From Nocardioides yefusunii (GTDB lineage Bacteria; Actinomycetota; Actinomycetes; Propionibacteriales; Nocardioidaceae), in assembly GCF_004014875.1 (NCBI RefSeq), contig NZ_CP034929.1:1178001-1242000 (forward strand): a DNA stretch of 64,000 bases, written 5' to 3'. A model generated the notes under the pieces. It did no database searches. It was given only the letters and a program-made list of their open reading frames with translations, and was not told where the DNA came from. Numbering within the stretch: the stretch's first letter is position 1; each line of letters begins with the position of its first letter. A program made the translations under genes and the position numbers. Positions 47,465-63,739 of the stretch are shown here, piece by piece.

Positions 47465-47537
47465 TCCCCTGTAGCTCAACTGGCAGAGCATTCGGCTGTT
47501 AACCGGAGGGTTGTTGGTTCGAGTCCAACCGGGGGAG
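47465..47537 (+). tRNA. tRNA-Asn(GTT), prophage target
   Basis: A 73-nt cloverleaf: acceptor TCCCCTG with CGGGGGA, anticodon stem TTCGG/CCGGA around the loop CTGTTAA (anticodon GTT), T-loop GGTTCGAGTCC, discriminator G, no encoded CCA. Its 3' half from 47500 belongs to the attL core, so the intact gene was rebuilt by the phage sequence. Confidence 0.97.
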
Positions 47538-47780
47538 CACAGTACGGAGGACGTCCTCGGCCTGTAGGCCGAGGACGTTCGCCATTTCGAGGACTTCCTC
47601 GATGGTGAACACGTGATCGCCGGTGGCACTCAGCCGCCGAGACACCCACGCCTGGGGCTTGCCCAGGGCGGCGCCGATGTCGGCCTGTCGGAGCCCTCGA
47701 CGCGCGAGCTGGGCCCGGAACTCGGCCGCGATCTTACGCGACGGCGTATCCGCTGAGATTGAAACGACTTGCTGAGTCAT
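47499..47780 (-). CDS. HTH repressor-like protein, truncated by integration
   Basis: A 93-residue protein with a helix-turn-helix of the XRE type at about residues 31-55 (RQADIGAALGKPQAWVSRRL). It is the only leftward gene at this end and is divergent from the early genes, as expected for an immunity repressor. Residues 82-93 (LPRLDSNQQPSG) are the antisense reading of the tRNA within the attL core, and the TAA stop uses base 47499, outside the core. In the excised circle the stop becomes TAC and the frame runs on for 33 codons (see 63333-63434), giving 126 residues. TATGCT six bases before the ATG suggests a leaderless message. Confidence 0.8.
   Translation of the reverse strand: MTQQVVSISADTPSRKIAAEFRAQLARRGLRQADIGAALGKPQAWVSRRLSATGDHVFTIEEVLEMANVLGLQAEDVLRTVLPRLDSNQQPSG
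47500..47538 (+). repeat. attL core
   Basis: 39 bp identical to 63433-63471, covering the anticodon-loop end to the discriminator region of tRNA-Asn. The first differing bases are 47499 (T, against G at 63432) and 47539 (A, against T at 63472). Confidence 0.95.
47551..47578 (+). terminator. Perfect hairpin just inside attL
   Basis: ACGTCCTCGGCC (47551-47562) pairs perfectly with GGCCGAGGACGT (47567-47578) over TGTA, 13 bp after the tRNA. It lies within codons 68-77 of the repressor gene. It could stop tRNA read-through into the prophage, replacing the host terminator that was moved to attR; no U-run follows. Confidence 0.6.
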
Positions 47781-47789
47781 GCACTCAGC
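47771..47789. promoter_or_regulatory. Candidate operator at the repressor start
   Basis: GCTGAGT and ACTCAGC form a perfect inverted repeat with a 5-bp centre, overlapping the repressor start codon and touching its -10 (complement of 47787-47792). It shares the half-site CTTGCTGA with the second palindrome at 47846. Confidence 0.55.
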
Positions 47790-47845
47790 ATAGGCACTTT
47801 GGGGGGAGATTGCCTAGGCGGCTTAGCGGTCTGTGATGCGTCAAT

Positions 47846-47862
47846 CAGCAAGAGTCTTGCTG
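47846..47862. promoter_or_regulatory. Candidate operator in the early promoter region
   Basis: CAGCAAGA-G-TCTTGCTG is a perfect 17-bp palindrome 42 bp before the first rightward gene. Its right half plus A (CTTGCTGA) recurs at 47768-47775 beside the first operator, which suggests one protein binds both. Confidence 0.6.
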
Positions 47863-47903
47863 AAACATTGCGATATTCAGTCTGTGTATGTCACGCTTCG
47901 CAC

Positions 47904-48035
47904 ATGAGTACTGCACCGGATGGCCGCAAGGCGTGGGCATCTGCCCTGCGCCTGGCCTACTACAGGGAGTCGCTGACTGGCGTTCGCCAGGCAGTTCGCC
48001 GTGTGGCCGGCCTGTGGGTGGTGGAGGCACTGTGA
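47904..48035 (+). CDS. Small basic early protein, unknown
   Basis: A 43-residue, arginine-rich protein (for example SLTGVRQAVRRVAGLW), the first rightward gene after the candidate operators. Its position suits a Cro or excision factor, but no HTH is clear. It overlaps the next gene by 4 bp (GTGA). Not recognised. Confidence 0.45.
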   Translation: MSTAPDGRKAWASALRLAYYRESLTGVRQAVRRVAGLWVVEAL

Positions 48036-48226
48036 GCCGTCGCCGCATGACCTCCGTCGCTTTCGAGTGCGACTTCTGCCGTGTACCGGTGCTCCGTCCG
48101 TCCGGGCTCATGCCCGAGGGCTGGAAGCACGACATGGGCGGCCACGACCACTGCACCGAGTGCCTGGACGACCGTTGTGCTTCCTGTGAGGGCGACGGCA
48201 CCACCGAATGTGTGGCCCGCTCGTGA
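48032..48226 (+). CDS. Small Cys-rich protein, zinc-ribbon-like
   Basis: A 64-residue protein with three CXXC pairs (CDFC, CTEC, CASC) and a histidine before the second, consistent with one or two zinc sites. The GTG start overlaps the preceding stop; ATG 48047 is an alternative. Function unknown. Confidence 0.5.
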   Translation: MSRRRMTSVAFECDFCRVPVLRPSGLMPEGWKHDMGGHDHCTECLDDRCASCEGDGTTECVARS

Positions 48227-48357
48227 GCAACGTCCGCTACTTCACGCCCGAGATGCTCGGCCCGGTGTGCCGCTACTGCCGCCACCAGGTGCCGCTGATC
48301 GCGCGTACCAACACCCACCCGACCTGTGGCCCGGAGGTGACTCGTGGCGTCTCGTGA
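48223..48357 (+). CDS. Small Cys/His protein, unknown
   Basis: A 44-residue protein starting at a GTG that overlaps the previous stop (GTGA). It contains CRYCRHQ and a later H-P-T-C, a possible zinc knuckle. It overlaps the next gene by 14 bp. No family recognised. Confidence 0.4.
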   Translation: MSNVRYFTPEMLGPVCRYCRHQVPLIARTNTHPTCGPEVTRGVS

Positions 48358-48589
48358 AGCCCGTCAGACCGCTGCCCTGGTCTCGCTCCTCAAGGCGCTG
48401 CCCGAAGCGCAGCTGCTCGACGTCCTCAAGGGCGTCGACGTCGCGCTGCCCGCGCCGAAGAGCGCGGGGCCCAAAGACACCCGCTCCTGCACCATCTGCT
48501 CGCTGCCCTACCCGCTGCACATGCAGCGCTGGGGTAACGACCACAAGTGGAGTCCTGCCGAGCGCAGAGCGGCGGTGGTAGTCCGCTGA
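48344..48589 (+). CDS. Small early phage protein, unknown
   Basis: An 81-residue protein with an amphipathic helical N-terminal half (ARQTAALVSLLKALPEAQLL) and a C-terminal CTIC plus two histidines that could bind zinc. GTG start. It ends a run of four overlapping small genes, three of them with paired cysteines. Confidence 0.5.
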   Translation: MASREARQTAALVSLLKALPEAQLLDVLKGVDVALPAPKSAGPKDTRSCTICSLPYPLHMQRWGNDHKWSPAERRAAVVVR

Positions 48590-48992
48590 CATGCACCAAT
48601 CCCGGTGGAGCACGAGACGCACGACCGGGGCGCCCGTAGGGGGCGGCACAACTCTGTGGGGCTGAACCGGAACCAGGGTCGAAGCGTGAGCTGAGAGATC
48701 GACCCCCGAGGGAAATGCTCGACGCGCTACAGCCCGCGTCGTCAGTGACCAGGTCTCGAACGCGTCGAGGCGGCCATTGACTGCCAACCCGAGCCTCTGG
48801 GGCTTGTCGGGTCCGTCAGCGACCCGTAACGGCGGTGCGAACTCTGAGTGGGGGGACTCTGGGGGGGCTCAGAGGCGCGGGGCCCAAGGGGTCTCGATCT
48901 TCGCCCTTGCTCTGAATCCACGCGTAGCACCGCATACCTATGCAGCACCGCCTGTCACATCACCACAACCACACCTCACCGGAGGGGACCCG
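48590..48992 (+). other. Non-coding stretch between early and late prophage genes
   Basis: About 400 bp without a convincing gene; the frame of the next gene is open from 48777, but its first codons look unlike the conserved part. It holds a 9-bp inverted repeat CTCGACGCG (48718) and CGCGTCGAG (48761). It may carry the late promoter or the packaging site; neither could be identified. Confidence 0.4.
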
Positions 48993-49400
48993 ATGACCAC
49001 CGCGACACTGAGCACCACCGCCACACCCCGCAGCACGGCACCCGTACTGATCCCGCTCTGTGCCTGCCGCGGGGCACGCCTGGACGACGTCGCCACTCGC
49101 ACGATCCGCGGTGTCGAGCACACCGAGGGCGCCTGCGTCCGTGTCCAGGCTGCTGCGGTCGAGTACTCCTACCAGTGCCGCTCCCTGCCGCTCTGGGTCC
49201 GTGTCTGCGCGTACGCCGAGTACAACCACGGCCGCGCCCTGGCACGTCGTGAGCTGCGTGACGCTGTCGCTCCTGACTCGTCCGCCGCTGAGGTGTCCAA
49301 CGCGATCCGCAAGGGCGTCTACTCCGGTCTGCTCCGCCCTGGGTCCTCCGGGATGCGACTGTGGTCCAACGTGGCTCGTGAGGTGACCAACCGTGGCTGA
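48993..49400 (+). CDS. Phage protein, possible winged-helix
   Basis: A 135-residue protein preceded by a strong GGAGGGGA ribosome site. The C-terminal half (ALARRELRDAVAPDSSAAEV and SNAIRKGVYSGLLRPG) has the rhythm of a winged helix. The N-terminal half has a CACRG pair and further cysteines. It lies two genes before the terminase, where a small terminase or DNA-binding factor is often found, but this is only a positional guess. Confidence 0.5.
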   Translation: MTTATLSTTATPRSTAPVLIPLCACRGARLDDVATRTIRGVEHTEGACVRVQAAAVEYSYQCRSLPLWVRVCAYAEYNHGRALARRELRDAVAPDSSAAEVSNAIRKGVYSGLLRPGSSGMRLWSNVAREVTNRG

Positions 49401-49647
49401 GATCACTAACCCGCTTAACTACCAAAGCGGGAGCCCCGTCCTCGTCGCGGTGGGGCGTATCCAGTCGCCTCGGCGCTGGCACGGCTCCCGCATCGTCAGG
49501 ATCCGGACCGACATCGGTGGCGGTCACCGCGCCGGATACGCGGTCACCACCAAGGGCACGCCCCACGACGGCCCGCTCTGCCGTGCCATGTGCTCCGCGA
49601 TCGCACCGACCGGCAGCGTCATCAGCGACTTCTGGGATGACGTGTGA
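49393..49647 (+). CDS. Hypothetical protein before terminase
   Basis: An 84-residue basic protein with no recognised domain. GTG start, 8-bp overlap with the gene before and a 4-bp GTGA overlap with the terminase gene, so it is translationally coupled to packaging. It could be a small terminase subunit, but no HTH is visible. Confidence 0.5.
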   Translation: MAEITNPLNYQSGSPVLVAVGRIQSPRRWHGSRIVRIRTDIGGGHRAGYAVTTKGTPHDGPLCRAMCSAIAPTGSVISDFWDDV

Positions 49648-51587
49648 ACGAGTGGTCCGGCCGGAGGGTGACCGAGGCCCGGGAGTGGGCACTCGGTCAC
49701 CTCCCGGCCACCTGTGGCAAGTGTGGGGGGCCCATCAAGCCCGCCCAGGGGTGGGTGCTGGGGCACATCAAGGATCGAGCACTGTTCCCGGAACTCATGT
49801 GGCAGCCGACCAACTGGCAGCGCGAGCACCGCGACTGCTCGAACTCGTCGTCGCAGTCCGTCGTGCAGAAGAACGCGGCGGTCACCGCGCTCGTCGCGGT
49901 CGGCGTCGATCGCGCGGACGCAGCCGAGCTCGTCGCGGACGGCGGACTTTTTCCCGAGCCCCGCGCCCCCAGGCAGTCGCCGCCCCTTCCTTTCTCTCTC
50001 CCCGCCACCACTCGACCCCGAGTTACCGCCACCAGCAAGGCAGCCCCGTCGATCGAGACGCGTGAGCCGCTGATCCTCCGCCAGGATCTGGTGTGGGACT
50101 CGGCCCGGCTGCGGGAGTACTCGTGGCTCGAGGAATTCGCCCTGGTGCCGGACGACGCGGCGCCGCCCCTGGCGATGACGCCGCCTCACCCCGAGGCTGT
50201 GTGCTCCTACGGATGGGACGGCTGCACCCACGTCGACCCCGGACACCAGATCGTGCGGTGGGCGCGGGAGTCGGTGAAGGTCGATCTGCGGTGGTGGCAG
50301 CGCCTGGCGATCGTCCGTCAGATGGAGCACCGTGCCGACGGCACCCCGTGCTGGGAAGAGGTCGACGAGACCGCGCCGCGCCGCTCTGGCAAGTCGGTGC
50401 GCATCCGGGTCATGGCGCTGTGGCGCATGGCGCACGCCGACCTCATCGGCGAGATCCAGACCGTCGTCCACTGTGGCAACGACCTCCCGATCTGTCGCGA
50501 GATCCAGCGCGGCGCGTGGCCCTGGGCCCGCGCCCGCTGGGGCGACAAGTCCGTCACCACCGCGAACGGCAAGGAGCAGATCGAGGGCGCGGACGGGTCT
50601 CGGTGGCTCGTCAAGGCACAAGACTCGGTGTACGGGTACGACGCTGGGCTCGGCGTCGTCGACGAGGCGTGGGATGTCAAGCCTGCCGCGATCACCGAGG
50701 GACTTGAGCCCGCGCTCATGGAGCGGCTCTGGTCGCAGCTGCACATCACCTCGACCGCTCACCGCAAGGCCACGTCTCTGCTCAAGGGCAAGATCTCCGC
50801 CGCCCTGGCATCCGACGACGGCCGCACCCTTCTGTTGTGGTGGGGCGCGCTCCCGCAGGACGACCCCGGCGACCCTGAGGTGCATCGCAAGGCGTCCCCG
50901 CACTGGTCGGCCGAGCGCGAGAAGATGCTGGCCACGAAGTACGAGCGTGCACTGCTCGGTGAGGACGACCCCGACGCCGACGACCCCGACCCCATGGAGG
51001 GCTTCCGTGCCCAGTACCTCAACGTGTGGGCGCTCAAGGCTGCCAAGCTCGCGCGCGGCACCGCGATCGTGGACCGGGCTGCGTGGGACGAGCTCACCGT
51101 GCCCGCGCCGTCGTCGACCCCGACCGGCTGCGCGGTCGAGTCCTGGTTCGACTCCGGTGTTTCGGTTGCCCTGGCTTGGACGCTCGAGGACGGCGCCGCC
51201 CTGGTCCACGTCGTCGACTGTCCCGACCTTGCGACCGCCCGCGAGGCAGTCGACGCCTCCGGGTACCGGGGCCGGGTCTCGGTCGGTGCATCCATCGCTG
51301 ACCACGTCGAACTTCGTGGCCTCCCGCTCGACCCCGTCCGCGCCACTCCCATTGCCGGGGTCCTCGACATCGCGCAGCTGCTCCGAGACGGGCAGCTGGC
51401 CCACGCCGGTGGGGACGCCCTGACTCGGCAGATCCTCGCCCAGCGCACCGTGCCCGGTGCAGGTGGCCCGCGACTCGCCACCCACGCCCGCGCCGATGCG
51501 ATCAAGGCAGCCGCCTGGGCAGCCTCGGCAGCGCGCAACCGACCCGCTCGGAAGTCCAAGATGCGCGTGCTTGTTGCGTCGTCCTAG
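49644..51587 (+). CDS. HNH endonuclease-terminase large subunit fusion
   Basis: A 647-residue protein that packages DNA into the capsid. Residues 24-67 look like an HNH nuclease (CGKC at 24-27, GH at 40-41, D44, N57, H62, C65). A Pro/Ala-rich linker (about 105-130) joins it to the terminase ATPase, with Walker A APRRSGKS at 244-251 and Walker B VVDEAW at 338-343, then a nuclease domain starting near residue 490 (AVESWFDSGVSVALAW). In many phages the HNH and terminase are separate neighbouring genes. GTG start, coupled to the gene before. Confidence 0.85.
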   Translation: MNEWSGRRVTEAREWALGHLPATCGKCGGPIKPAQGWVLGHIKDRALFPELMWQPTNWQREHRDCSNSSSQSVVQKNAAVTALVAVGVDRADAAELVADGGLFPEPRAPRQSPPLPFSLPATTRPRVTATSKAAPSIETREPLILRQDLVWDSARLREYSWLEEFALVPDDAAPPLAMTPPHPEAVCSYGWDGCTHVDPGHQIVRWARESVKVDLRWWQRLAIVRQMEHRADGTPCWEEVDETAPRRSGKSVRIRVMALWRMAHADLIGEIQTVVHCGNDLPICREIQRGAWPWARARWGDKSVTTANGKEQIEGADGSRWLVKAQDSVYGYDAGLGVVDEAWDVKPAAITEGLEPALMERLWSQLHITSTAHRKATSLLKGKISAALASDDGRTLLLWWGALPQDDPGDPEVHRKASPHWSAEREKMLATKYERALLGEDDPDADDPDPMEGFRAQYLNVWALKAAKLARGTAIVDRAAWDELTVPAPSSTPTGCAVESWFDSGVSVALAWTLEDGAALVHVVDCPDLATAREAVDASGYRGRVSVGASIADHVELRGLPLDPVRATPIAGVLDIAQLLRDGQLAHAGGDALTRQILAQRTVPGAGGPRLATHARADAIKAAAWAASAARNRPARKSKMRVLVASS

Positions 51588-51653
51588 GAACGTTGCGAAT
51601 CCGCGTGAGTTTAACGGCGTCCGGGGCGCGTGTTTCGCCCGCAGTCTTGACGC

Positions 51654-52868
51654 ATGGACACCGACGCGACACAGGGACTGTGGGGCACTTGGCACCGTGT
51701 CGACCCGACCGCATTGGTCCCGGCTGCCCTTCCTCCCAAGAGGCAGTCGGGGCCGGTGTTCTCGGGTACGCACATCGACCCCATCCACGGTGTGTCGACG
51801 GTCGACGCCGCGATCACCTACCTCTCGGGGTTCGGCCGGGTCACCCGTCGTGAAGCGATCGCCACCCCGGCGATCAAGCGCGCACGTGACCTGATCTGCT
51901 CGCTGGCACAGTCGCCGCTCGTGATGCGCGACGAGACCGGCGCCGACGTCACCAGGGCCTACAACCGAACGGACTGGACGCTGCTGCTCCAGCCCGAGGT
52001 CAAGCGGGCCCCGATCAACACCTGGGCCGACGTCCTCGAGGATCTGCTGTTCGAGAAGTTCGCTCGGCTCCGGGTCACCGACCTGGCATGGCACGGACGC
52101 CCCGCACACGTCACCCGCATGAAGCCCGGCTCCTACACCCGCGACGACCTGCGGGGCGGGTACTGGGTCAACGTGCCCGGTAAGGATGCCGACTGGGTCC
52201 CCGAAGAACAGGTCATCGAGATTGAGTCCCCGAACGACGCGATCCTCGACGCTGGCGCCGGCGCGATCCGGGCTCTCTCACTCATCAGCGCCGCGGGCCT
52301 CAACGCCGTCTCAGGCGTGCCCCCGCAGGACTACTTCGAGTCCACCGACCCCAACGTCGACCCCTTCGAGTCGGATGAGGAAGCCAAGGAATTCCTCGAC
52401 TCCTGGGCCGCTGCCCGCCGCGCTCGCTCAACCGCTTTCATCCCTAGCGGCGTGAAGTACCAGACCAACGGGTTCGACCCCAAGCAACTGCAGCTCGTCG
52501 AGCTGCGTACCGAAGCGATCGCCGAGATCGGCCGACTCACCGGGATTGACGCCGAAGACCTCGGCGTCTCCACCACCTCGCGGACGTACTTCAATGCGCA
52601 GGACCGCCGCCGCGCGATGCTCGACTTCACCTTCGGTCCGTACCGCCGCGCGATCGAGGACCGCCTCTCCATGGAGGACATCGCCCCGCCCGGCTACAGC
52701 GTCCGCTTCGACACCCGCGAGTTCTCCCGCGCCGACGACGCCACGCAGGCCACCACCGATGCCGCCCTGGTCTACGCCGACATCGTCACCCGCGACGAGA
52801 TCCGCGCCGAGCGCGGCCTCGGCCCGCTGCCCAAGACCACCACTGCCCAAGAGGTTTCCGCGTCGTGA
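51654..52868 (+). CDS. Portal protein
   Basis: A 404-residue HK97-type portal, forming the dodecameric ring through which DNA passes. Recognisable are AIKRARDLICSLAQSPLVMR near the start, the mid part FESTDPNVDPFESDEEAKEF, and the crown helix region around LRTEAIAEIGRLTGIDAEDLG. It lies 66 bp after terminase and overlaps the capsid gene by 4 bp. Confidence 0.9.
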   Translation: MDTDATQGLWGTWHRVDPTALVPAALPPKRQSGPVFSGTHIDPIHGVSTVDAAITYLSGFGRVTRREAIATPAIKRARDLICSLAQSPLVMRDETGADVTRAYNRTDWTLLLQPEVKRAPINTWADVLEDLLFEKFARLRVTDLAWHGRPAHVTRMKPGSYTRDDLRGGYWVNVPGKDADWVPEEQVIEIESPNDAILDAGAGAIRALSLISAAGLNAVSGVPPQDYFESTDPNVDPFESDEEAKEFLDSWAAARRARSTAFIPSGVKYQTNGFDPKQLQLVELRTEAIAEIGRLTGIDAEDLGVSTTSRTYFNAQDRRRAMLDFTFGPYRRAIEDRLSMEDIAPPGYSVRFDTREFSRADDATQATTDAALVYADIVTRDEIRAERGLGPLPKTTTAQEVSAS

Positions 52869-54592
52869 TCCCCAAGACACACCGCTTCGACAACCCTGCC
52901 GCGGTCACCTTCAAGGTCAACCGGGAGACCCGCACGATCCGCGGTCTCGCGGTCCCGTGGGGCGAGATCGGCGACAACGGCCGCGGCCGGTTCCGGTTCA
53001 AGCGTGGGTCCTTGACCTGGGACAAGGTCAAGTTGCTCAACGCCCACGACTGGGACCAGACCATCGGCGTTGTCAAGTTCGAGGACACCGACGAGGGGCT
53101 GCTCATGGCGGCCAGCGTCGCCCAGACCCGCCTCGGCGACGAGGTCCTGTCTCTGGCCGAGATCGGCGCGATCGACGGCCTGTCCATCGGCCTCGCCGAT
53201 GACATCGACTTCGACCTCGTCGACGGCGTCCACGAGGTCTCCCGCGGCGTCGTCATCGAGACCTCTACCACCCCCATCCCCGCTTTCGAGAACGCCCAGA
53301 TCCGCTCCGTCGCCGCCTCGGCGTCGGGCACCACCTCCGGAAGGAACCTCATGGACGAGGACGAAACCACCACTGCCACGGTCGAGGACCGCCTCACGGC
53401 GGTTGAGGACCGGGTCACCACGCTCGAGACCACCGTCAACCAGGTCGAGGAAACCGTCGAGGAAACCGTCGGTGAGATCGCGACGCTCAGCAAGATCAAG
53501 ACCCCTGTCGCCACCTTCGCTGCCGGCTCCGCGGCATCGCGGCTCACCGTCCGCGAAGAGCCCATGTACCGCTTCGAGGGCTCCGTGCGCGCCCCGTCCG
53601 GGTTCGACTTCGCCGAGGACCTGTTCAAGGCCGCCCGCTTCGGCGACCAGGCCGCGAAGGACCGCGTCATCCGGTTCGCTGCCGAGGACCGCGGCGGACT
53701 CACCTTCGCCACCACCAGCGACACCGCCGCAGTGAACCCCGTCGAGCACCGCCCCGACATGTTCCTGGGCCAGGCACCGGCCCCGTCGAGCCCGCTGTTC
53801 GACTTCTTCCGCAAGGGCTCCATCGACGGACCGCAGACCTTCGACTACGCCAAGCTCGACCGCGTCGCCACCACCGCGACCGTCGCCAACCACGTCGAGG
53901 GCGTCGAACCCACGGCCACCAACGTGTCCACCGCCAAGGGGACCACGGTCACCCCGTCCGCAGTCTCCGGCAAGGTCCACATCACCCGCGAGGTCGCAGC
54001 CGGTCGAGGCACCCCGACCGCCTCCGCCCTGGCACGCGACGAGTTCCACCGCACCTTCGGGATCGCGCTCGAGACCAAGACCCACGCGATCATCTCCGCC
54101 GCCTCGGCCTCGATCACCTCCCTCACCGCGGCGATCACAGCCGGCGCAGACGGCAAGGCGCTCGGCCTGGCCCTCAAGACGGGGCTGCTGAAGCTGCAGT
54201 TCCAGGCCGACGGGTCCCGCTTCGTCCAGGGCTTCGGTCACGAAGACCTCTACACCACCCTCGCGCTCGTCGAGAACGGTGACGGTGAGCCGGTCTACCC
54301 GATCATCAACCCGCAGAACCGCGACGGCATCGCGGGGGACAAGTACTCGTTCATCGACGTGGCCGGTTACCGCTTCACCCCGACCGCGACCCTCGGCGCG
54401 ACCAGCGCCAGCGCGTCGCTGTCCTACGTCGCCGACCCCGCCGCAGTCCACGTCTGGGCCTCCGGTCTCACCGAGCTCGACATGCTCGGCCAGGACGTCG
54501 AGGGCTGGGACATCGGCTGCTTCGGCTGGTTCGCCGGGCTCATGTACGACGTCACCGGTCTCCGCAAGATCTCCTACGACCCCACGGCGTGA
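52865..54592 (+). CDS. Fused prohead protease-scaffold-major capsid protein
   Basis: A 575-residue protein. Residues 1-150 match the HK97-type prohead protease, with the catalytic pair in LLNAHDWDQT (H61) and AIDGLSIGL (S107). Residues 170-208 are a coiled coil rich in Glu, Val and Thr, like the delta scaffold. From about 230 the sequence is an HK97-fold capsid protein (LTFATTSDTAAVNPVEHRPD; FGHEDLYTTLALVENG). Fusion of protease and capsid is typical of miniature actinophages. An internal ATG at 53351 follows GGAAGGA and may make a 413-residue form without the protease. The GTG start overlaps the portal stop. Confidence 0.9.
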   Translation: MIPKTHRFDNPAAVTFKVNRETRTIRGLAVPWGEIGDNGRGRFRFKRGSLTWDKVKLLNAHDWDQTIGVVKFEDTDEGLLMAASVAQTRLGDEVLSLAEIGAIDGLSIGLADDIDFDLVDGVHEVSRGVVIETSTTPIPAFENAQIRSVAASASGTTSGRNLMDEDETTTATVEDRLTAVEDRVTTLETTVNQVEETVEETVGEIATLSKIKTPVATFAAGSAASRLTVREEPMYRFEGSVRAPSGFDFAEDLFKAARFGDQAAKDRVIRFAAEDRGGLTFATTSDTAAVNPVEHRPDMFLGQAPAPSSPLFDFFRKGSIDGPQTFDYAKLDRVATTATVANHVEGVEPTATNVSTAKGTTVTPSAVSGKVHITREVAAGRGTPTASALARDEFHRTFGIALETKTHAIISAASASITSLTAAITAGADGKALGLALKTGLLKLQFQADGSRFVQGFGHEDLYTTLALVENGDGEPVYPIINPQNRDGIAGDKYSFIDVAGYRFTPTATLGATSASASLSYVADPAAVHVWASGLTELDMLGQDVEGWDIGCFGWFAGLMYDVTGLRKISYDPTA

Positions 54593-54816
54593 TGACCATG
54601 GCAACCAAGAAGAGCACGCCCCAGGCGTTCGCACTCGGCGAGACCATCGAGGTCCCGTCCGGAGCCACCCTCGTGGCCCTCGACGACGGCACGGTCACCA
54701 CCGTTCGCCGTGAGCACGTGCTTGCCGTACCCGGCGAGCACCGGTTCGTCAACGACGACGGCCTCACCCTGGCCGTCTACCGCGTCGCCGTCCCGGAGAC
54801 CCCGGACAGCGACTGA
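54592..54816 (+). CDS. Small head-associated protein, unknown
   Basis: A 74-residue beta-rich protein (FALGETIEVPSGATLVALDD). ATG 54592 overlaps the capsid stop by one base; ATG 54598 is equally possible. By place between capsid and connector it could be a decoration or head-stabilising protein, which is an inference. Confidence 0.5.
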   Translation: MTMATKKSTPQAFALGETIEVPSGATLVALDDGTVTTVRREHVLAVPGEHRFVNDDGLTLAVYRVAVPETPDSD

Positions 54817-54881
54817 CCGGCTCCACTGCACCGGGGCGCCCTCACGTCCCGGTGCAGTGGCACCACCTCACTGGAGACACC

Positions 54882-55199
54882 GTGACTGCACCCACACCTG
54901 ACCAGGCACACAAGTACGTCGGCAGGGCTGACTACACCCTCGCCGAGGTGACGACGGTCCTCGCCGCCGAGCGTGCCGCCCAGGCACGCCGCTGCCGCGT
55001 CCCCACCGAGGGGGAGTGGCCCGCCGACCTGGTCGAGGCGCTCCTACGCCGCACGCTCGCAGCCCTCGCGATGCGCGCGAACCCGCTCGGAGTCGCGGTG
55101 TCGGTCACCGACTTCGGTGTCTCCACCGACCGTGTCGGTGGCCTCGACCCCGTCGTGCGTCGCCTCGAGGCACCGCACGTGAAGCTGGTGCTCGGATGA
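54882..55199 (+). CDS. Head-tail connector protein
   Basis: A 105-residue helical protein (YTLAEVTTVLAAERAAQARR, ADLVEALLRRTLAALAMR) of the gp6/gp15 adaptor style that docks on the portal. GTG 54882 follows GGAG; a longer frame from 54852 lacks a ribosome site. Overlaps the next gene by 4 bp (ATGA). Confidence 0.65.
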   Translation: MTAPTPDQAHKYVGRADYTLAEVTTVLAAERAAQARRCRVPTEGEWPADLVEALLRRTLAALAMRANPLGVAVSVTDFGVSTDRVGGLDPVVRRLEAPHVKLVLG

Positions 55200-55579
55200 A
55201 CCCCGTCTCCCTCACGAAGCGGCCTGGGGAGCCGTCCATGCGGCACGCGATCGCGGACGCGATCTCGACCATCGAGGGCATCAAGTGCGCCCCGTACTAC
55301 ACCCAGACCACCAAGCCCGGAGCCGCGTCCCTGCTCTGGGCAGGCCGCACAGAGTCGGACGACGAATTCCGAGAGGGGTGGCTCACGCAGTGGGTTGTCC
55401 GGATCAACCTCACCGCCGACGTCGCCGCGTCGGAGCGCCGCATTGACGAGCTGATCCCGCAGCTCGACGCGGTCCTGCCGTCTCGCGCCCTCCGGATCAC
55501 CGACCTTGAGCCCGCCGAGATCGCCCTCGGCGGCGCCACCTTGAACGCTCTTCTCGTCCGCATCACCGAGACCCAGTAA
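55196..55579 (+). CDS. Tail terminator or head-tail joining protein
   Basis: A 127-residue protein (RHAIADAISTIEGIKCAPYY, then RRIDELIPQLDAVLPSRALR) placed between the connector and the tail tube, where the tail terminator is normal. The fold fits small minor tail proteins of the gpU type. Assignment rests mainly on order. Confidence 0.55.
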   Translation: MNPVSLTKRPGEPSMRHAIADAISTIEGIKCAPYYTQTTKPGAASLLWAGRTESDDEFREGWLTQWVVRINLTADVAASERRIDELIPQLDAVLPSRALRITDLEPAEIALGGATLNALLVRITETQ

Positions 55580-55591
55580 GGACCACACACC

Positions 55592-56011
55592 ATGACCGAC
55601 GTAAGGCCGCACCTGATCGACGTCCTCATCGACGACGAGGAAGCCGGCGCAGAGCTCGCCCGTTTCGAGTTCCACTCCGTTCCCAGTGCCGACGAGTTCG
55701 TCACCTTCGCCACCGCACGCCAGGGCGGGGAGCGGGACTGGTCGGTGCAGATGACCGTGAAGGAAACCGGCACGGCCGGCACCGCCTACCAGCTCGCGCT
55801 CAACAGCCCTGGCACAAAGGTCGAGGTCGTGTACCGCCCCCACGGCAACGCGACCGCCACGCCGGCCGAGCCGCACTACACCCAGATGGCGACGGTGCAG
55901 CCGATCGAGGGCCGAACCATGGGCGGCACCGCGACCCGGTCCCGCAATGCCCGCTCGAGCATGGAGCTCGTGTGGCCTCTCGACGGCGCCCCCGTCAAGG
56001 TCACGGCCTGA
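55592..56011 (+). CDS. Probable major tail (tube) protein
   Basis: A 139-residue beta-rich protein (RDWSVQMTVKETGTAGTAYQ, VEVVYRPHGNATATPAEPHY) that looks like a short tail-tube subunit. It is placed three genes ahead of the tape measure. Length is at the low end for tube proteins. Confidence 0.6.
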   Translation: MTDVRPHLIDVLIDDEEAGAELARFEFHSVPSADEFVTFATARQGGERDWSVQMTVKETGTAGTAYQLALNSPGTKVEVVYRPHGNATATPAEPHYTQMATVQPIEGRTMGGTATRSRNARSSMELVWPLDGAPVKVTA

Positions 56012-56014
56012 GCC

Positions 56015-56422
56015 ATGGCCAGTCCGTCCGGCATCTACATCGAGGGGCTGCGTGAAACGACGCGGGCGTTCGAGCGTGCCGGCGTCGACGTCGAGGACCT
56101 CAAAGACGTCATGGGTCGGGTGGCGGGCGAGCACGCCGACACCCTCGCCCGGCTCGTGCCAGTCGGCAGCGCGGCGCGGGGCTCCAAGCGCCCTGGCGCC
56201 CTGCGGGACTCCGTGCGCGGCAACCGCGCCAAGGGTCGCGCCCAGGTCCTCATTGGACGCGCCCGTGTCCCCTACGCCGGCGCAATCAACTACGGCTGGC
56301 CCAAGAGGGGCATCAAGCCCGCCAACTTCATCGCCCGTGCCGACGACGTCATGGGCACCCGCGCCGTCGAGATCCTGACCGACGGGTGGAACGAAATCGC
56401 TGAAAGGAACGGCCTCCTATGA
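56015..56422 (+). CDS. HK97 gp10-like minor tail protein
   Basis: A 135-residue protein with the gp10-like pattern: an N-terminal helix (LRETTRAFERAGVDVEDLKD), LVPVGSAARGSKRPGALRDS and the AINYGWPKRGIKPANFIARA turn. gp10-like proteins complete the tail-head joint. It lies after the tube gene rather than before it, a small order change. Overlaps the next gene by 4 bp. Confidence 0.7.
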   Translation: MASPSGIYIEGLRETTRAFERAGVDVEDLKDVMGRVAGEHADTLARLVPVGSAARGSKRPGALRDSVRGNRAKGRAQVLIGRARVPYAGAINYGWPKRGIKPANFIARADDVMGTRAVEILTDGWNEIAERNGLL

Positions 56423-56742
56423 CCCGCACCACCGTAGGACCCCGCGAACTCGCGGCCTCCGTGAACGGCTTCGACGACCTCGCCGTCGCGAAGTACTTCG
56501 GCAAGTCCTTCTCCCAGATGGCATCCCGCGACGAGAACGGTGAGCGGGACGTCGACGGCAGTGTCAGCCTGCGTGCGCTGATCTTCATCGACCAGCGACG
56601 CCAGGGCGCCAAGGACGCCGCCGCCTGGCAGACGTGCATGGAGATCACCATCACCGAGCTCGGCACCTACTTCCCGGCCGAAGAGGACGAGGTCACCCCC
56701 GACGACCCCGCCACCGACCTGGGAAAAGACTCCATGCCCTGA
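56419..56742 (+). CDS. Tail assembly chaperone (short form)
   Basis: A 107-residue protein (LAASVNGFDDLAVAKYFGKS, MEITITELGTYFPAEEDEV) directly before the tape measure. It ends shortly after a GGGAAAA slippery site. The short form is the G product of the lambda G/GT scheme and coats the tape measure during tail assembly. Confidence 0.75.
   Translation: MTRTTVGPRELAASVNGFDDLAVAKYFGKSFSQMASRDENGERDVDGSVSLRALIFIDQRRQGAKDAAAWQTCMEITITELGTYFPAEEDEVTPDDPATDLGKDSMP
56721..56727 (+). promoter_or_regulatory. -1 ribosomal frameshift site
   Basis: The heptamer G GGA AAA, read in the frame CTG GGA AAA GAC, is a canonical slippery sequence. Slipping back one base joins residue 103 of the chaperone to the open frame 56727-56870. 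Confidence 0.88.
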
Positions 56743-56870
56743 GGGGCATCGCCTACGAAACCGCCCGCGCCTGCCTGGCCTACCGGATGAGCCCCACCGA
56801 GTGGCGCAGCCTCACCGTCTTGGAGAAGCAAGCGTTCCACGACGCCGCCCGTGACCTGAAAGAAGAGTGA
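56727..56870 (+). CDS. Tail assembly chaperone, frameshift extension
   Basis: This frame adds 47 residues (RLHALRGIAYETARACLAY onward) to the first 103 of the chaperone, giving a 150-residue GT-type product. It has no start codon of its own that would make sense. It ends 3 bp before the tape measure gene. Confidence 0.82.
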   Translation, partial: RLHALRGIAYETARACLAYRMSPTEWRSLTVLEKQAFHDAARDLKEE

Positions 56871-56873
56871 CCC

Positions 56874-57896
56874 ATGAGTGCTGGACGACCAGTACGCGTC
56901 GCCGTCGTCGGCGACTCCGGCGACCTGCGCCGCGCGCTGTCGCAGGCCGAGGCCGCGCTCGACGACGTCGGCGACACCGCTGTCGACAACGGCCGCCGCG
57001 TCGAGGCTGCCCTGGGCGCGACCGCCGAGTCGGCAGACGCAACGGCGTCGGCGTCGTCGCAGCTCGCCGGTGGTCTGGGTGACCTCGCCGGTGGTATGGC
57101 CGCGGCCGGCTTCATCTCCGAAGACACCGCAGCCGCCTTCGACACCGCGTCACAGGCGATCATGGGTGTCACCGGTGCAGCCGACCTCATGAACCTGGCC
57201 ACCGAGAAGATCCCTGGGATTCACAAGGTGGCCACCGCAGCCACCAAGGGCCTCGCCGCCGCCAAGCGTGCCCTCGGTGTCGCGATCCGGTTCGCCATGG
57301 GGCCGGTCGGCTTGATCATGATCGCGATCACCGCCCTGATCGCGATCGTCACCGTCCTGTGGAAGAACAACGAAGGATTCCGTAAGGCCGTCATCAAGGT
57401 CTGGGAGGCAGTCAAGGACGGCGTCGGCGCCGCGATCGACTGGGTGTCAGACAAGATCTCCGGGCTGATCGACTTCTTCAAGAAACTGCCGGGCCGAATG
57501 ACGCAGGCCGTGTCGGGTCTGTGGAACGGCATCAAGGACGGCTTCAAGGGCGCGATCAACTGGGTCATCGACAAGTGGAACAACTTCTCGATCTCGCTGC
57601 CCGGTGTCAAGGTGCCTGGCCTCGGACAGGTCGGCGGCTTCACCCTCAACACCCCCGACATTCCGCGCCTCAACATGGGCGGCATCGTCACCCGCGCCAC
57701 CACGATCACCGCCGGTGAGGGACGTCCGGAAGCCATTCTTCCGCTCGACCGGCTCGGCGGCCTCGGCGGCGGGGACGTGAACATCTACATGCACCCCACC
57801 AGCGACCCGGTCGCGGTCGGCAGGGAGCTGCAGAAGGTCCTCGACGCTTTCCGTCTCGCAGGCGGTCGCGGTCTCGGAGCGGGGGTGCCGGGATGA
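56874..57896 (+). CDS. Tape measure protein (very short)
   Basis: A 340-residue protein: an Ala-rich helical first third (ALSQAEAALDDVGDTAVDNG), a hydrophobic core segment (FAMGPVGLIMIAITALIAIV) and a Gly-rich C-terminus with GGIVTRATTITAGEGRPEAI, the typical end of actinophage tape measures. Tape length sets tail length; 340 residues would give a tail of only about 50 nm at 1.5 angstroms per residue. Overlaps the next gene by 4 bp. Confidence 0.88.
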   Translation: MSAGRPVRVAVVGDSGDLRRALSQAEAALDDVGDTAVDNGRRVEAALGATAESADATASASSQLAGGLGDLAGGMAAAGFISEDTAAAFDTASQAIMGVTGAADLMNLATEKIPGIHKVATAATKGLAAAKRALGVAIRFAMGPVGLIMIAITALIAIVTVLWKNNEGFRKAVIKVWEAVKDGVGAAIDWVSDKISGLIDFFKKLPGRMTQAVSGLWNGIKDGFKGAINWVIDKWNNFSISLPGVKVPGLGQVGGFTLNTPDIPRLNMGGIVTRATTITAGEGRPEAILPLDRLGGLGGGDVNIYMHPTSDPVAVGRELQKVLDAFRLAGGRGLGAGVPG

Positions 57897-59470
57897 TCGA
57901 CCCCGACAGTGTTGCCGTGCTCCTGGGGTACAACGCCAGCGCCCACCCGAACTACTGCCTCAATCCCAACGGGGCCGTCGGTGGAGTCGGGTGGCGCACC
58001 CTGATTCCTGGGTCTCGGATTCAGAGCGTCGACGCGTCCAGTGAGGGAGCACCCGAGGCACTGGCCTACGTCTCGTCCGCGGCCGGGGCGCAGGTGTGGC
58101 AGTCGGTCGAGTTCCCCGTCGACGGCGCCGCGGGGCACCGCCCCTACGCCTACTTCACAGCCGTTTTCACGTCGGCTGACCTGGCTTGCACGTTCACCTA
58201 CACCGACGCTGCCGGGACGTGGATCGGCACATCATCCACGCACGTAGTGCCCGCTGGCACGACGCGGACACGGTTCGCGATCTTGCCCGCCGCGCCGGCC
58301 CCTGCCGGTGCGCGTACCTGCGTGCTGTCAATGTCCTTCACGGCGTCTGGTGCTGGCACCAGTCACGTCCTCACTGACTTCAAGCTGACCTCCGCCGCGA
58401 CCGCCCCCGGAGACGCCACCGTGGGCAGCCTCACGTGGAACGACATCAGCGACTGGTGCGAAGACATCACCGCGACGCTCGCCGGGCTCTCAGTGGGCAC
58501 CCTCACCGTCCGCGCCCATGACCAGTGGGCAGTGCTCGCCGCCCGTCCAGGGCACCAGATCCGGGTCGAGGTCGGCGGGCAACGGCTCTGGACCGGCGTC
58601 GTGAGCCGCGTCGTCTCGGAGTCTCGCAAGGCCAAGCGCGCCGGCGTCGACCTCAAGCCGATCGTCACGATCACCGCGACCGACGCCGTGACGCAGCTCG
58701 CCGGTACGCCCGCCCCCCGCGGGGTCACCTCCTTCGTCAACCTGCCCGCGTCGCTGGACCGCGGCACGACCCCGTGGGTGGTGCAGGGCGTCAGCGACTC
58801 CGTGGCTGTCGCGGCGACGCTCTCCACCCCTGGTGCGTCCGCACTTGACCAGGTCATCCGCACTGTCACCACTGCCACCATCAGCCGTGTCCGTGCATGG
58901 ATCGACCGTTTCGGGGTCCTGCAGGTGTACGGCACGTCCGGGTTCGACGGCATCGCGGCCACCTTCACTGACAGCCCCGCACTCAGCACCGCCGCCCGCT
59001 ACGTCGACGTGCAGCGCGGCTTCGACTCCGAAGACTGCATCAACACCGTCTATGTCGAGGTCAGCAACGGCGCCGAGACCGTCACGAACGGCCCGTGGGT
59101 GAACTTCGCCTCGGTCGCGGCATGGGGCACCAGGGCCGCGACCTACAAGACCTATGACGCCAACAGCCCTCTCTCGCCCACGGCCGGTGCAGGGCTCGCG
59201 TCCACAGTCCTCGACAGCAACGCCTCGCCCGCGATGAAAGTGCAGAGCATCACCACCTACAACTCGACGCCCACGATCCGGGCTGCTGCGATCGCAGCCG
59301 CCCCGCAGCGCCGCGTCTCGGTCATCCACCGCGACACCACCTACTCCTGCCGGGTCCTACAGGTCACCCACCGCATCACCGCCCGCGCCGGCGACCTGCG
59401 CCGCCCCGCGACCTGGCACACCGACTTCGTCCTCGGGTCCGCGACCGCTGTCCCGCTCCCACTCAACTGA
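57893..59470 (+). CDS. Minor tail (tail-tip) protein
   Basis: A 525-residue beta-rich protein coupled to the tape measure gene. The N-terminal half looks like a carbohydrate-binding sandwich (HPNYCLNPNGAVGGVGWRTL); the second half contains RVEVGGQRLWTGVVSRVVSE and TITATDAVTQLAG, the pattern of phage tail-tip hub proteins. It appears to be the only large tip protein, so it may combine distal tail and hub roles. Confidence 0.72.
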   Translation: MIDPDSVAVLLGYNASAHPNYCLNPNGAVGGVGWRTLIPGSRIQSVDASSEGAPEALAYVSSAAGAQVWQSVEFPVDGAAGHRPYAYFTAVFTSADLACTFTYTDAAGTWIGTSSTHVVPAGTTRTRFAILPAAPAPAGARTCVLSMSFTASGAGTSHVLTDFKLTSAATAPGDATVGSLTWNDISDWCEDITATLAGLSVGTLTVRAHDQWAVLAARPGHQIRVEVGGQRLWTGVVSRVVSESRKAKRAGVDLKPIVTITATDAVTQLAGTPAPRGVTSFVNLPASLDRGTTPWVVQGVSDSVAVAATLSTPGASALDQVIRTVTTATISRVRAWIDRFGVLQVYGTSGFDGIAATFTDSPALSTAARYVDVQRGFDSEDCINTVYVEVSNGAETVTNGPWVNFASVAAWGTRAATYKTYDANSPLSPTAGAGLASTVLDSNASPAMKVQSITTYNSTPTIRAAAIAAAPQRRVSVIHRDTTYSCRVLQVTHRITARAGDLRRPATWHTDFVLGSATAVPLPLN

Positions 59471-59479
59471 AGGAAGACC

Positions 59480-60055
59480 ATGGCGACCAACCCGCTGCAC
59501 CGCCCCAATTGGCGCGGCCGAAGCAACGTCGACGCGCTCACCATCGCCGCGCTCGAGCACGCCGAAGCCCTCGCGGGCCACCAGTTCACCGTCACCCAGG
59601 GCAGCTACCAGTCCACCGTCGTGGCCTCCGCTGGCACCCACGACAAGGGCGGCGTCGTCGACCTCGCGTGGTGCGGGCACGACGCCTGTGTGGGCCACCT
59701 GCGCCGCGCCGGGTTCTGGGCCTGGCACCGCACCCCTGCCCAGGGGAAGTGGAAGGACCACATCCACGCCGTCGTCAAGGGGCACCCCAACCTTGCGCCG
59801 GCTGCCGCGCGACAGGTCACCGCAGGTGAGAAGGGACGCAACGGCCTGGCCAGCACCGGACCCGACGACGGCCCCAAGGTCTCCGTCCCCACGCCCACGC
59901 TGCCCTGGCCCAAGACCACCCGCGGCAAGCACGTTGACGACGCGATCGCGGCCACCGCGAAGTCCGCCCGCATCGCGAAGAAGCGCGGCCAGACCAAGCG
60001 GTACCGCACTCTCAAGACCGCCCTCGGCGCGCTGCGCTCCCTGCCGAAGAAGTGA
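59480..60055 (+). CDS. M15-like peptidase endolysin
   Basis: A 191-residue protein. Residues 40-100 carry the M15-type metal pattern: SAGTHDKGGVVDLAW (H54, D61) and WKDHIHAVV (H94, H96). It probably cuts peptide cross-links of the host wall at lysis. The C-terminal about 70 residues are basic and may bind the wall. No second lysin domain is present. A holin-like gene follows. Confidence 0.78.
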   Translation: MATNPLHRPNWRGRSNVDALTIAALEHAEALAGHQFTVTQGSYQSTVVASAGTHDKGGVVDLAWCGHDACVGHLRRAGFWAWHRTPAQGKWKDHIHAVVKGHPNLAPAAARQVTAGEKGRNGLASTGPDDGPKVSVPTPTLPWPKTTRGKHVDDAIAATAKSARIAKKRGQTKRYRTLKTALGALRSLPKK

Positions 60056-60063
60056 GACCAGAC

Positions 60064-60399
60064 ATGACCGACACCGCCACCCCGCTCCCCGTCGACCCCG
60101 CCGACGTCGTGACCTGGCCCCAGGCCGCGACCGCGATCGTCCTGATCCTCGCGGTCCTCGTCATCCCCGCAGTCCTGACATACCTCACCAACCGCCGAGT
60201 CAAGGCGCTCGACACCACCCTCACCACCAACAACGGTGGCGGGTCCGTGAAGGACCAGCGCGACTCCATCGCGGCCGATGCCGCCGCGACCCGCGAGCTC
60301 GTCGAGGCACGACTCGTCCCAGCCGTCGACGACCTCGCCGCCCGCGTCGACGTCCTCGAGGCAGCCAAGCCCCGCGGCATCTTCGGACGCGCCCGATGA
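60064..60399 (+). CDS. Membrane protein, possible holin (DUF2746-like)
   Basis: A 111-residue protein with one transmembrane helix at about residues 22-44 (AATAIVLILAVLVIPAVLTY) and a helical, probably coiled-coil C-terminus. Actinophages often encode such DUF2746-like proteins near the lysin. A holin role follows from position. Overlaps the next gene by 4 bp. Confidence 0.6.
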   Translation: MTDTATPLPVDPADVVTWPQAATAIVLILAVLVIPAVLTYLTNRRVKALDTTLTTNNGGGSVKDQRDSIAADAAATRELVEARLVPAVDDLAARVDVLEAAKPRGIFGRAR

Positions 60400-60719
60400 G
60401 CGCCCCGTACCACCAGCTGCGCGTAGACCAGGGCGCACGCTTCGACCTCACCATCCTCTACCAGCAGCCCTCGACCGAGGGCGTCGACATGACCGGGACC
60501 ACCGCCACCCTCACCGTCCTCGACGAGGACGGCAAGGTCCTGGCATCCCACACCGTCGACGGTGTCGACGACGGCCGCCTTGACTTCACCCTCGCGGCCA
60601 CCGTCACCGCGGCGCTGCCCGCAGGTCGGCTCGCCTACCACGTCGACCACGAAACCATCACCGGACCCGACCGCCTCGTCGTCGGCGTCCTCGAATGCCG
60701 GGAGGCCACCCGTGTCTAA
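60396..60719 (+). CDS. Beta-rich virion protein before the fibre
   Basis: A 107-residue Ig-like protein (TTATLTVLDEDGKVLASHTV) resembling the N-terminal domains of baseplate upper proteins. It is coupled at both ends (ATGA before, 8-bp overlap with the fibre gene after) and may attach the fibre to the tail tip. Not firmly recognised. Confidence 0.5.
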   Translation: MSAPYHQLRVDQGARFDLTILYQQPSTEGVDMTGTTATLTVLDEDGKVLASHTVDGVDDGRLDFTLAATVTAALPAGRLAYHVDHETITGPDRLVVGVLECREATRV

Positions 60720-62217
60720 CCGAATCGTCATCACCGCACCCGGTCCCCAGGGCTCGCCTGGCCCGCAGGGCGAGCCGGGCCCCAGCACCGTGCCCACCGC
60801 CCTCGCGGTCGCGCACGCCCTTGGCGACGGCCAGCCCGGCCGGACCGTCATCGACGAGCACGTGGCCGCAGCTGCCAGCGACGCAGGCACCCCGATCGGC
60901 CGTGCGCTTTACGCCGCCATCGGCGATCAGGTCACGCCTCTGGAGACGCTGACTTTTGCGGGACAGCAGGCCGTCTCCGAGGCTGCACTGGTGGTCCGGT
61001 CTGGCGATGACGAGCGCGCCACCCTCACGCCGGACGGACGCACAGCGGTCTACATGGTGACCGGCGAGAGCAGCCAGACTTTCACTGTCTCCGGCTGCGC
61101 CGTCTCGGATGACACCCTGCGGAAGAAGACGGGCACTCAGTCGCGGCGCTTCACGACCTCCGGGGCCGCGACTGCCGTAGCGACCCACTCGCCCGCCACC
61201 GCCCTCACTCACGGTCCCGCGTCCATCTGGCGCACGTGGGTATGGATCGAGGATGTCACGGCACTCACCGGGTACTTCCAGATCATCCACACGCGCGGCG
61301 CTGTGATCGACACCGTCGCTCCGCCCGCCGACCAGCGATGGGTGAAGCAAGTCCCCGTCTCGTCGCTCCGCACCGGATGGAATCTGATCTCCGACGACAC
61401 TCTCGGGATGTACAGCGCTGCCGGATGGGGCAGCATCTACTCGACCCGCTACATCTTCCAGACCACCAAGGCCACCAGCGTGTCGGTGGACTCGACGTGG
61501 TTCGAGTGCCCCAAGAAGGCGTCGCTCCTGCTCATTCAGGACGGCGGCTACAAGTCGTACATGACCCACGCGATCCCGGAACTGCGGTCGCGCAAATACC
61601 CGACGGTGTGGGCACTCAATCCGGGCTGGCTCGGCAAGCGCCCTGGTGCCTTCAACGAGACGATCACTGTCGCCGACGTCGCTACCCTCAAGGCGGCTGG
61701 CGACGAGATCTCTTTCCACTCGTGGGTCGCAGGTAATGACGGGCAACTGATGGCGACCATGACCCGCGAGCAGGTCCGCGATGACTCCCTCAAGTCCATC
61801 GCTGTCGCGCAGGCCGAGGGGTGGGGTAAGGGCTACCTCTTCCGAGGGGCATTCCTTCAGAATCTCGCGCCGAATGCGAGGGGCTGTGCACCCTATCACG
61901 CGATGCTGGCGACCTCGACGGAGAGGGATTCCCAGATCGCTACGTGGCCCCCGATGAACCGTCTCGACGTGGCTCGCGTGGGCTTGCACTTCTCCACCGA
62001 CGCTTTCATTGATGACATCTTCAACCGCCTGGAGAAGACTCGGGGCCTGTGCCTCGGGTACACCCACGGAATCTCCACGGTGTCCGCAGGCGACATGACC
62101 CCGGCGCGGCTGACCTACCTACTCGGCAAGATCGACGCTGCCGTGGCAGCCGGGTGGCTTGAGGTCACCACCTTTGAGCGGCTGCTCGCCTCGGCAGGCG
62201 GCGTCCTCCGCGCCTGA
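60712..62217 (+). CDS. Tail fibre with collagen-like stretch and deacetylase-like domain
   Basis: A 501-residue protein. Residues 9-23 are collagen-like (APGPQGSPGPQGEPG), then a fibre-like part, then a polysaccharide-deacetylase-type barrel from about residue 270 (LLLIQDGGYKSYMTHAIPEL). The metal site is partly degenerate: D277 is in the first motif and H336 starts the HSW motif, but the second histidine expected at 340 is alanine. It may bind or trim a host surface polysaccharide. The GTG start overlaps the preceding gene. Confidence 0.75.
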   Translation: MSNRIVITAPGPQGSPGPQGEPGPSTVPTALAVAHALGDGQPGRTVIDEHVAAAASDAGTPIGRALYAAIGDQVTPLETLTFAGQQAVSEAALVVRSGDDERATLTPDGRTAVYMVTGESSQTFTVSGCAVSDDTLRKKTGTQSRRFTTSGAATAVATHSPATALTHGPASIWRTWVWIEDVTALTGYFQIIHTRGAVIDTVAPPADQRWVKQVPVSSLRTGWNLISDDTLGMYSAAGWGSIYSTRYIFQTTKATSVSVDSTWFECPKKASLLLIQDGGYKSYMTHAIPELRSRKYPTVWALNPGWLGKRPGAFNETITVADVATLKAAGDEISFHSWVAGNDGQLMATMTREQVRDDSLKSIAVAQAEGWGKGYLFRGAFLQNLAPNARGCAPYHAMLATSTERDSQIATWPPMNRLDVARVGLHFSTDAFIDDIFNRLEKTRGLCLGYTHGISTVSAGDMTPARLTYLLGKIDAAVAAGWLEVTTFERLLASAGGVLRA

Positions 62218-62224
62218 CGCACTT

Positions 62225-62475
62225 GCCCGGTAAAGCGCACCACTACCCACTCACGAAAGGAGCCATCATGGCTCACCCCGCAACGACCGCACTCCTGGAC
62301 TTCTTCGAGTTCGAGCACCTGCCGCCGCACCTCGCCAAGGTCTCGGAGAAGTTCCACGACCTGGCGCACGACGTCGCCGCCACGCTCGACGGCCCCGAGG
62401 CCACGGTCGCTGTCCGCAAACTGCTGGAAGCCAAGGACTGCGCCGTCCGCGCCGCCGTCAGCGCCCGGTAAAGCG
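62225..62475 (+). repeat. 13-bp direct repeats flanking the small 62268 gene
   Basis: GCCCGGTAAAGCG occurs at 62225-62237 and again at 62463-62475, 238 bp apart, on either side of a single small gene. Such flanking repeats suggest a cassette that was gained or can be lost by recombination. Confidence 0.75.
62268..62471 (+). CDS. Small helical protein, possible Acb2/Tad1-like anti-defence factor
   Basis: A 67-residue protein after AAGGAG. Two helices are predicted by eye (LPPHLAKVSEKFHDLAHDVA and VRKLLEAKDCAVRAAV). The pattern HLPPHL-X-VS...LRKLLEAKD-X-AVRAA is common in small actinophage proteins that I recall being grouped with the Acb2/Tad1 hairpin family, which soak up cyclic oligonucleotide signals of CBASS or Thoeris. 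That link is from memory and moderate at best. It lies between the fibre and the integrase gene, flanked by direct repeats. Confidence 0.55.
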   Translation: MAHPATTALLDFFEFEHLPPHLAKVSEKFHDLAHDVAATLDGPEATVAVRKLLEAKDCAVRAAVSAR

Positions 62476-63285: not shown

Positions 63286-63332
63286 GCGGGGATCGTCAGA
63301 AATCGACAGCCCCCGCGCTCTCGGTTTCTAGA

Positions 63333-63434
63333 TCATGCCCGCCGCAGCCGGAACGTCAGGACTCGCCCTAGCGGCTGGGGCCCTTCGGGTGGCCCTAACG
63401 TCACCTCACCGTCGCTGGCCTCGTCATACAGGTA
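63333..63434 (-). pseudogene. Detached 3' end of the viral repressor frame
   Basis: These 34 codons (YLYDEASDGEVTLGPPEGPQ and then PLGRVLTFRLRRA, stop TGA at 63333) are in frame with the repressor gene once attL and attR are joined at the core. In the lysogen they are separated from it by the whole prophage and have no start. They are the C-terminal extension that integration removes. Confidence 0.72.
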
Positions 63435-63730: not shown

Positions 63731-63739
63731 CTGGTGAAG

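Follow-up and report, generated by a model that had tools for sequence, protein, structure and literature searches.

The stretch of DNA analysed here, called the window, comprises 64,000 nucleotides of the Nocardioides yefusunii genome, which is assembled as one 3.32-Mb contig. Between two copies of a 39-bp attachment core (Table 1) lies a 15.9-kb element that, judged by its gene content, is the prophage of a miniature tailed phage. In a tblastn search against phages, its terminase has no match at 1e-10, and looser limits return weak matches, the best at 2e-7. Apart from the window's own phage (L156), an integrase scan of viral contigs returns just L157, which lies on the contig of L151, a relative described below.

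Table 1. Features of the element and its surroundings, in window coordinates.
Feature	Position	Strand	Basis or remark
Intact tRNA-Asn at attL	47465..47538	+	ARAGORN; 3' half is the att core
Mini-prophage, core to core	47500..63471		39-bp direct repeat with copies 15,933 bp apart, plus phage genes by HMM
attL common core	47500..47538		39-bp repeat
Stop codon TAA	47499..47501	-	created where the prophage meets host tRNA sequence
HTH repressor, prophage form, 93 aa	47499..47780	-	phrog_4583 and HTH_31 matches
Second palindrome, TGCTGAGT/ACTCAGCA	47770..47790		overlaps repressor start
Operator-like palindrome, TCAGCAAGA-G-TCTTGCTGA	47845..47863		upstream of repressor; 9-bp arms; 2 of 60 shuffles as long
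Terminase large subunit	49644..51587	+	phrog_9, 5.2e-19
Portal	51654..52868	+	PF04860, 4.7e-26
Fused prohead protease and major capsid protein	52865..54592	+	HMM; resembles fusions of 17.4-kb Microbacterium phages
Short tape measure protein	56874..57896	+	phrog_4197, 1.3e-21
Tyrosine integrase	62476..63285	-	phrog_1, 1e-32; PF00589, 4e-12
Repressor extension, 33 codons and stop	63333..63434	-	would prolong repressor in attP; ends ...VLTFRLRRA
attR common core	63433..63471		39-bp repeat
Second tRNA-Asn, identical to attL copy	63658..63731	+	ARAGORN and sequence comparison

The two copies of the core are identical, and their length is the 39 bp given in the preliminary description of this DNA. 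The second tRNA-Asn gene begins 225 bp past the start of the attR core and is a possible alternative attB. In the prophage, the host tRNA-Asn at attL is oriented into the repressor gene (47465-47780), and a hairpin 3' of the tRNA, seen by eye at 63479-63511, has been displaced by integration to beyond attR; antisense transcription is therefore possible. The terminator scan called no terminator for this hairpin. The IMG/VR record of the window's phage (L032) lacks the core, and thus the window's own attP is not directly seen.

The helix-turn-helix (HTH) protein encoded at attL matches phrog_4583 (transcriptional repressor) at 1.1e-6 and HTH_31 at 1.6e-6, which is better than the cut-off of that model. 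A structural model places five helices at residues 13-78 (mean pLDDT 79.8), with a tail of low confidence to which the core-encoded residues belong. By tblastn against phages, the repressor has no match at 0.01. Read in the repressor frame, attR has TAC (63434-63432) followed by 33 open codons and a stop at 63335-63333, and the integrase gene starts 47 nt past this stop on the repressor's strand. The viral form of the repressor would be 126 residues long versus 93 in the prophage, a loss of 33 residues. The preliminary description had proposed each of these points: the TAA at 47501-47499 that closes the HTH ORF, whose coordinates are correct; its change to TAC with 33 further codons in frame to 63333; the two lengths, which the reading frame on both phage halves bears out; the integrase on the same strand after 47 nt; and an extension that ends in LRRA rather than in a classical LAA tag.

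Two palindromes with part of a half-site in common lie upstream of the repressor and over its start. In a survey upstream of 19 repressors, for which the start codons were chosen by script, a notable palindrome (2 of 60 shuffles as good) is present only in the window and at L155, so that one of the 18 other elements has a palindrome as unusual as the window's. Upstream of the L155 repressor, CTTGACATATGTCAAG includes GACATATGTC, which is the central part of the BPs operator CGACATATGTCG as given in PMC4557955. No sigma-70-like promoter is found within 47400-48400, and blastn of 47840-48060 against phages gives no match.

This arrangement is best explained as a switch for integration-dependent immunity, carried by a miniature temperate Nocardioides phage and resembling those of BPs, Brujita and Charlie, a reading that is given a probability of a little over three in four. 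Once the phage DNA is circular, the repressor gene would span attP, encode 126 residues and be followed on its own strand by the integrase gene. On integration at tRNA-Asn, the phage-derived 3' end of the gene would give way to host sequence, the antisense of the anticodon loop, in which TTAA provides an in-frame TAA and hence the 93-residue repressor. Integration would also part the integrase from the promoter side of the repressor. By analogy with the known switches, the short form would be stable, would repress and would give immunity, and the long form would be inactive, most likely via proteolysis of its C-terminal tail. According to PMC4557955, the two forms of the BPs repressor show similar binding to operator-region DNA, and the long one is inactivated by targeted degradation through a proven tag. 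Degradation of this kind is the leading guess for the long form here, with the LRRA end as a caveat.

A single locus with this pattern could arise by chance roughly once in ten, by a hand estimate that combines the frame (1/3), a non-stop codon (about 1/2) and 33 open codons (about 1/2 at the G+C of the window). Since the window alone is thus weak evidence, relatives were surveyed with a DNA pattern consisting of the antisense tRNA-Asn core followed by any codon except TAA, which favours no HTH frame, and it is the relatives that make the case convincing. Among viral contigs, the pattern occurs in 33 stretches, 22 of which lie within a tRNA recognised by ARAGORN. At 9 (8 distinct) of the 11 tRNA-free sites, an in-frame HTH ORF runs through the core into an extension; the other two, L057 and L060, have no HTH ORF at the core. 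The genome contigs contain 39 pattern loci, with a tRNA in 24 of them; the 15 tRNA-free loci consist of 8 HTH-bearing ones (7 elements), 3 without an HTH by eye and 4 in candidate-phyla bacteria. A search of the family gives a match in 6 of 341 genomes, its own included, and adds one HTH element, L137.

In all, 15 of the 16 distinct HTH elements found with the DNA pattern (window excluded) read the core in the window's frame; the exception is L136. In this count, L034 and L049 are taken once, as are L068 and L070. Excluded from it are L057 and L060, which have neither tRNA nor HTH; the candidate-phyla loci L073, L085, L094 and L100; and L071, L143 (element of L072) and L144 (element of L074), at whose cores inspection by eye shows no HTH ORF, whatever the frame. 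L143 and L144 have the same tRNA target, yet no HTH is seen at their cores. A separate set of 13 loci, found by a protein search, was left out save for L035, L052 and L055, which the DNA pattern also finds; 10 of the 13 agree with the frame, in a set that is biased toward the window's frame because its patterns included the core peptide, and the remaining L024, L030 and L031 have no HTH ORF entering the core.

Thirteen of the 15 in-frame ORFs score above the curated threshold for a Pfam HTH family. The ORF at L052 falls below the cut-off of its Pfam HTH model and matches phrog_2328 (transcriptional repressor) at 1.5e-6; for the Nesterenkonia element, the basis is L115, a fragment of 46 aa at a contig end with no Pfam match and a phrog_2328 match of 2.1e-8. 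Of 10 ORFs scanned against PHROG, five (L139, L140, L141, L142 and L035) have phrog_4583 as best match, as in the window, and five (L115, L151, L152, L153 and L052) have phrog_2328, indicating that repressors of two families preserve the frame. The length of the linker from the HTH to the core is variable in the aligned set. Because the elements share common ancestry, the 15 of 16 are not independent and no exact probability is claimed; as read from their sequences, the relatives argue against a chance origin of the frame. In the exception, L136 (N. alcanivorans), the repressor is out of register with the core, and its HTH assignment rests on a match to the window repressor (6.2e-13). The tRNA-Asn of L136 is 73 nt long and has an acceptor-stem mismatch, which makes a sequencing error the simplest explanation; the sequence was left unmended.

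The relative with an uninterrupted attP is L151, a viral contig of 16,995 bp with a 127-bp terminal repeat that is probably a complete circular genome, although the IMG/VR output gives it no end class. Its terminase, portal, capsid and integrase are 48%, 38%, 32% and 59% identical to those of the window. The order HTH, core, extension and integrase is unbroken, with a 9-residue tail; the repressor ends in YLFPHVRAA, and 2 nt past its stop the integrase may start. Core and frame are those of the window although the repressor is of the second PHROG family, so L151 appears to be a related mini-phage that combines another repressor head with an unchanged switch layout. The integrated relatives measure, core to core, 15.9 kb in N. 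soli (L138), 16.1 kb at L137, 18.1 kb in N. alcanivorans (L136), 17.2 kb in Actinotignum (L139), 16.3 kb in an Actinomycetaceae MAG (L140) and 17.1 kb in Mobiluncus porci (L142); L141, in Mobiluncus curtisii, is a 2.1-kb remnant. At position 517 of L140, the host side of attR has, by eye, the end of another related HTH repressor, perhaps the relic of an earlier prophage.

Several side observations concern the core itself. Repressors match phrog_2328 up to positions 100-102 of its 128, where the core ends, and viral-form extensions may therefore be part of the family model. The residues just past the core look alike in several elements, which may reflect an integrase binding site rather than conservation of the protein. 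At the four candidate-phyla loci, an ORF continues in frame through a tRNA-like core and onward. At L121, in the genome of L073 (core at 1510), 500 codons precede the core in an ORF that looks recombinase-like by eye; at such loci, integration might shorten the recombinase itself.

The tails of the viral forms are diverse. The 16 tRNA-Asn extensions (the 15 in-frame elements and the window) end in AA in 7 cases, AS in 3, a single A in 2 (window and L055) and other residues in 4. AA ends are enriched relative to control ORFs (15 of 323), although these controls are rough, being ORFs of at least 80 aa picked greedily from 16 elements, some of which are not real genes. Among 13 translated repressors of named phages, 12 end in AA and 1, that of Terror, in AS; in Guacamole, Obliviate and GMA5, a small gene sits between repressor and integrase. 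Three elements of the genus Nocardioides end in LRRA (window), GRAS (L137) and RRAS (L138). The Actinomycetaceae extensions of L140, L141 and L142 are by eye hydrophobic, strongly so in L140 and L142, and not AA-ended; as a guess, the L140 and L142 tails could be membrane-seeking. A motif V[VIL]x[LFMI] is present in 9 of the 16 extensions (1.07 expected) and in 2 of the 13 named phages (0.68 expected), an exploratory result since the motif was picked after viewing the sequences and plain hydrophobic tails fit it too. By the published definition, in the available text of PMC9934374, the viral form carries an ssrA-like tag with two C-terminal alanines; the window tail, ending in LRRA, has one. 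A BPs-type degradation signal was also looked for in the integrase: the window's C-terminus is RRAAVAAAG, and the integrase ends of the relatives vary. The frame of the core is not universal, given that Rahul reads it in a different frame from the other six small Gordonia phages and that differing frames across the core are published for M. abscessus prophages (PMC9934374, available text).

If the ORF end were spurious, the peptide LDSNQQPSG would be mere antisense of tRNA-Asn. It does equal the antisense of the tRNA core, and most pattern loci in both surveys fall within recognised tRNAs; at 9 of the 11 tRNA-free, attP-type sites in viral contigs, however, an HTH ORF reads through in frame, which makes such an artefact very improbable. 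The overlap might instead be real and passive, with a repressor that merely ends near the tRNA core, two lengths that behave alike and an integration without effect. A lone locus could indeed be chance, the window tail has no AA end, and the long and short BPs repressors bind the rep-side intergenic DNA similarly (PMC4557955). Preservation of the frame across two PHROG families and across variable linkers is hard to reconcile with passive overlap, as are the enrichment of AA ends in the extensions and the fit to a published paradigm, and it is considered improbable, though less so than the artefact.

A further reading is compatible with the integration-dependent switch and concerns only how the long form is disabled: in place of an ssrA-like AA tag, the means could be a basic tail that a protease or an adaptor recognises, a block to oligomerisation or, in the Actinomycetaceae relatives, a hydrophobic tail that perhaps seeks the membrane. 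The non-AA ends of the three Nocardioides-genus elements and the strongly hydrophobic tails of L140 and L142 speak for it; AA or AS ends in 10 of the 16 tRNA-Asn extensions and in all 13 named phages indicate that an ssrA-like signal is the common case. On balance its probability is put at about one in three. Somewhat more tentative still is the idea of a broad family of actinobacterial elements that uses the antisense tRNA-Asn anticodon loop as the stop of the switch and leaves the tail free to vary, from an AA degron through basic RRA or RAS ends (Nocardioides) to hydrophobic, possibly membrane-tethering ones (Actinomycetaceae). If true, the switch would be conserved and the means of disabling the long form interchangeable. 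The diversity of tails poses the question of whether a degron is required or any disabling tail is enough.

The likeness to BPs, Brujita and Charlie drawn in the preliminary description holds for the order repressor-attP-integrase, the tRNA target, the 33-residue loss and the layout of the relatives; instability of the viral form and immunity through the trimmed form are carried over by analogy. As in the window, BPs attP lies within the repressor gene, 33 residues are lost (PMC4557955, available text) and a tyrosine integrase is downstream. Brujita and Charlie are 47 kb and 43 kb in size versus 15.9 kb for the window element. Novelty in a phage of miniature type, which had also been suggested, does not survive, since such switches were already published for Gordonia Cluster CW (2017) and for Bifidobacterium prophages (2018). 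Searches of the open literature for integration-dependent immunity with Nocardioides, and for Nocardioides with prophage and tRNA-Asn, found no paper by these terms. In its available part, PMC10865867 only mentions integration-dependent immunity, and the corresponding part of PMC5513430 reports small phages of Cluster AN from a collection that is mostly lytic. The 17.4-kb Microbacterium phages (Quaker, Hernandez44 and others) have a similar protease-capsid fusion, 39% identical over 24% of the protein.

Among the closest comparisons are the small Gordonia phages, a set made up of GRU3, GMA5, Jeanie and McGonagall of Cluster CW (PMC5559632, available text) and the similar-sized EricDab, Emperor, Rahul and SallySpecial. 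Cluster CW phages are described in the available text of Pope 2017 (PMC5559632) as temperate, 17.1-17.7 kb long and endowed with integration-dependent immunity, with tRNA-Lys and a shared 37-bp core; the window has tRNA-Asn and a 39-bp core. Like the window element, the small Gordonia phages are 15.9-17.7 kb in size and have, upstream of the integrase, a repressor in which one segment resembles tRNA antisense. Their integrases, at 40-48% identity (42-44% for GRU3, GMA5 and McGonagall), are the best named relatives of the window integrase. Seven small Gordonia repressors all end in AA, unlike the window's LRRA, and no small Gordonia or Cluster CW phage is among the terminase matches listed (15 of 353). 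Cluster CW has phams in common with the Bifidobacterium prophages Bb423phi2 and 689b-1, in which integration removes the repressor tail, an extension of 18 residues with an ssrA-like tag (PMC6109161, available text) as against 33 residues and LRRA in the window. With the present results, integration-dependent immunity would reach Nocardioides and tRNA-Asn as a target, and at least 15 further elements, from viral contigs and from genomes of actinobacteria, would join its carriers. As far as sequence comparison goes, the switch architecture is real, common to many elements and already known in miniature phages, of which the window element is a variant by target and tail.
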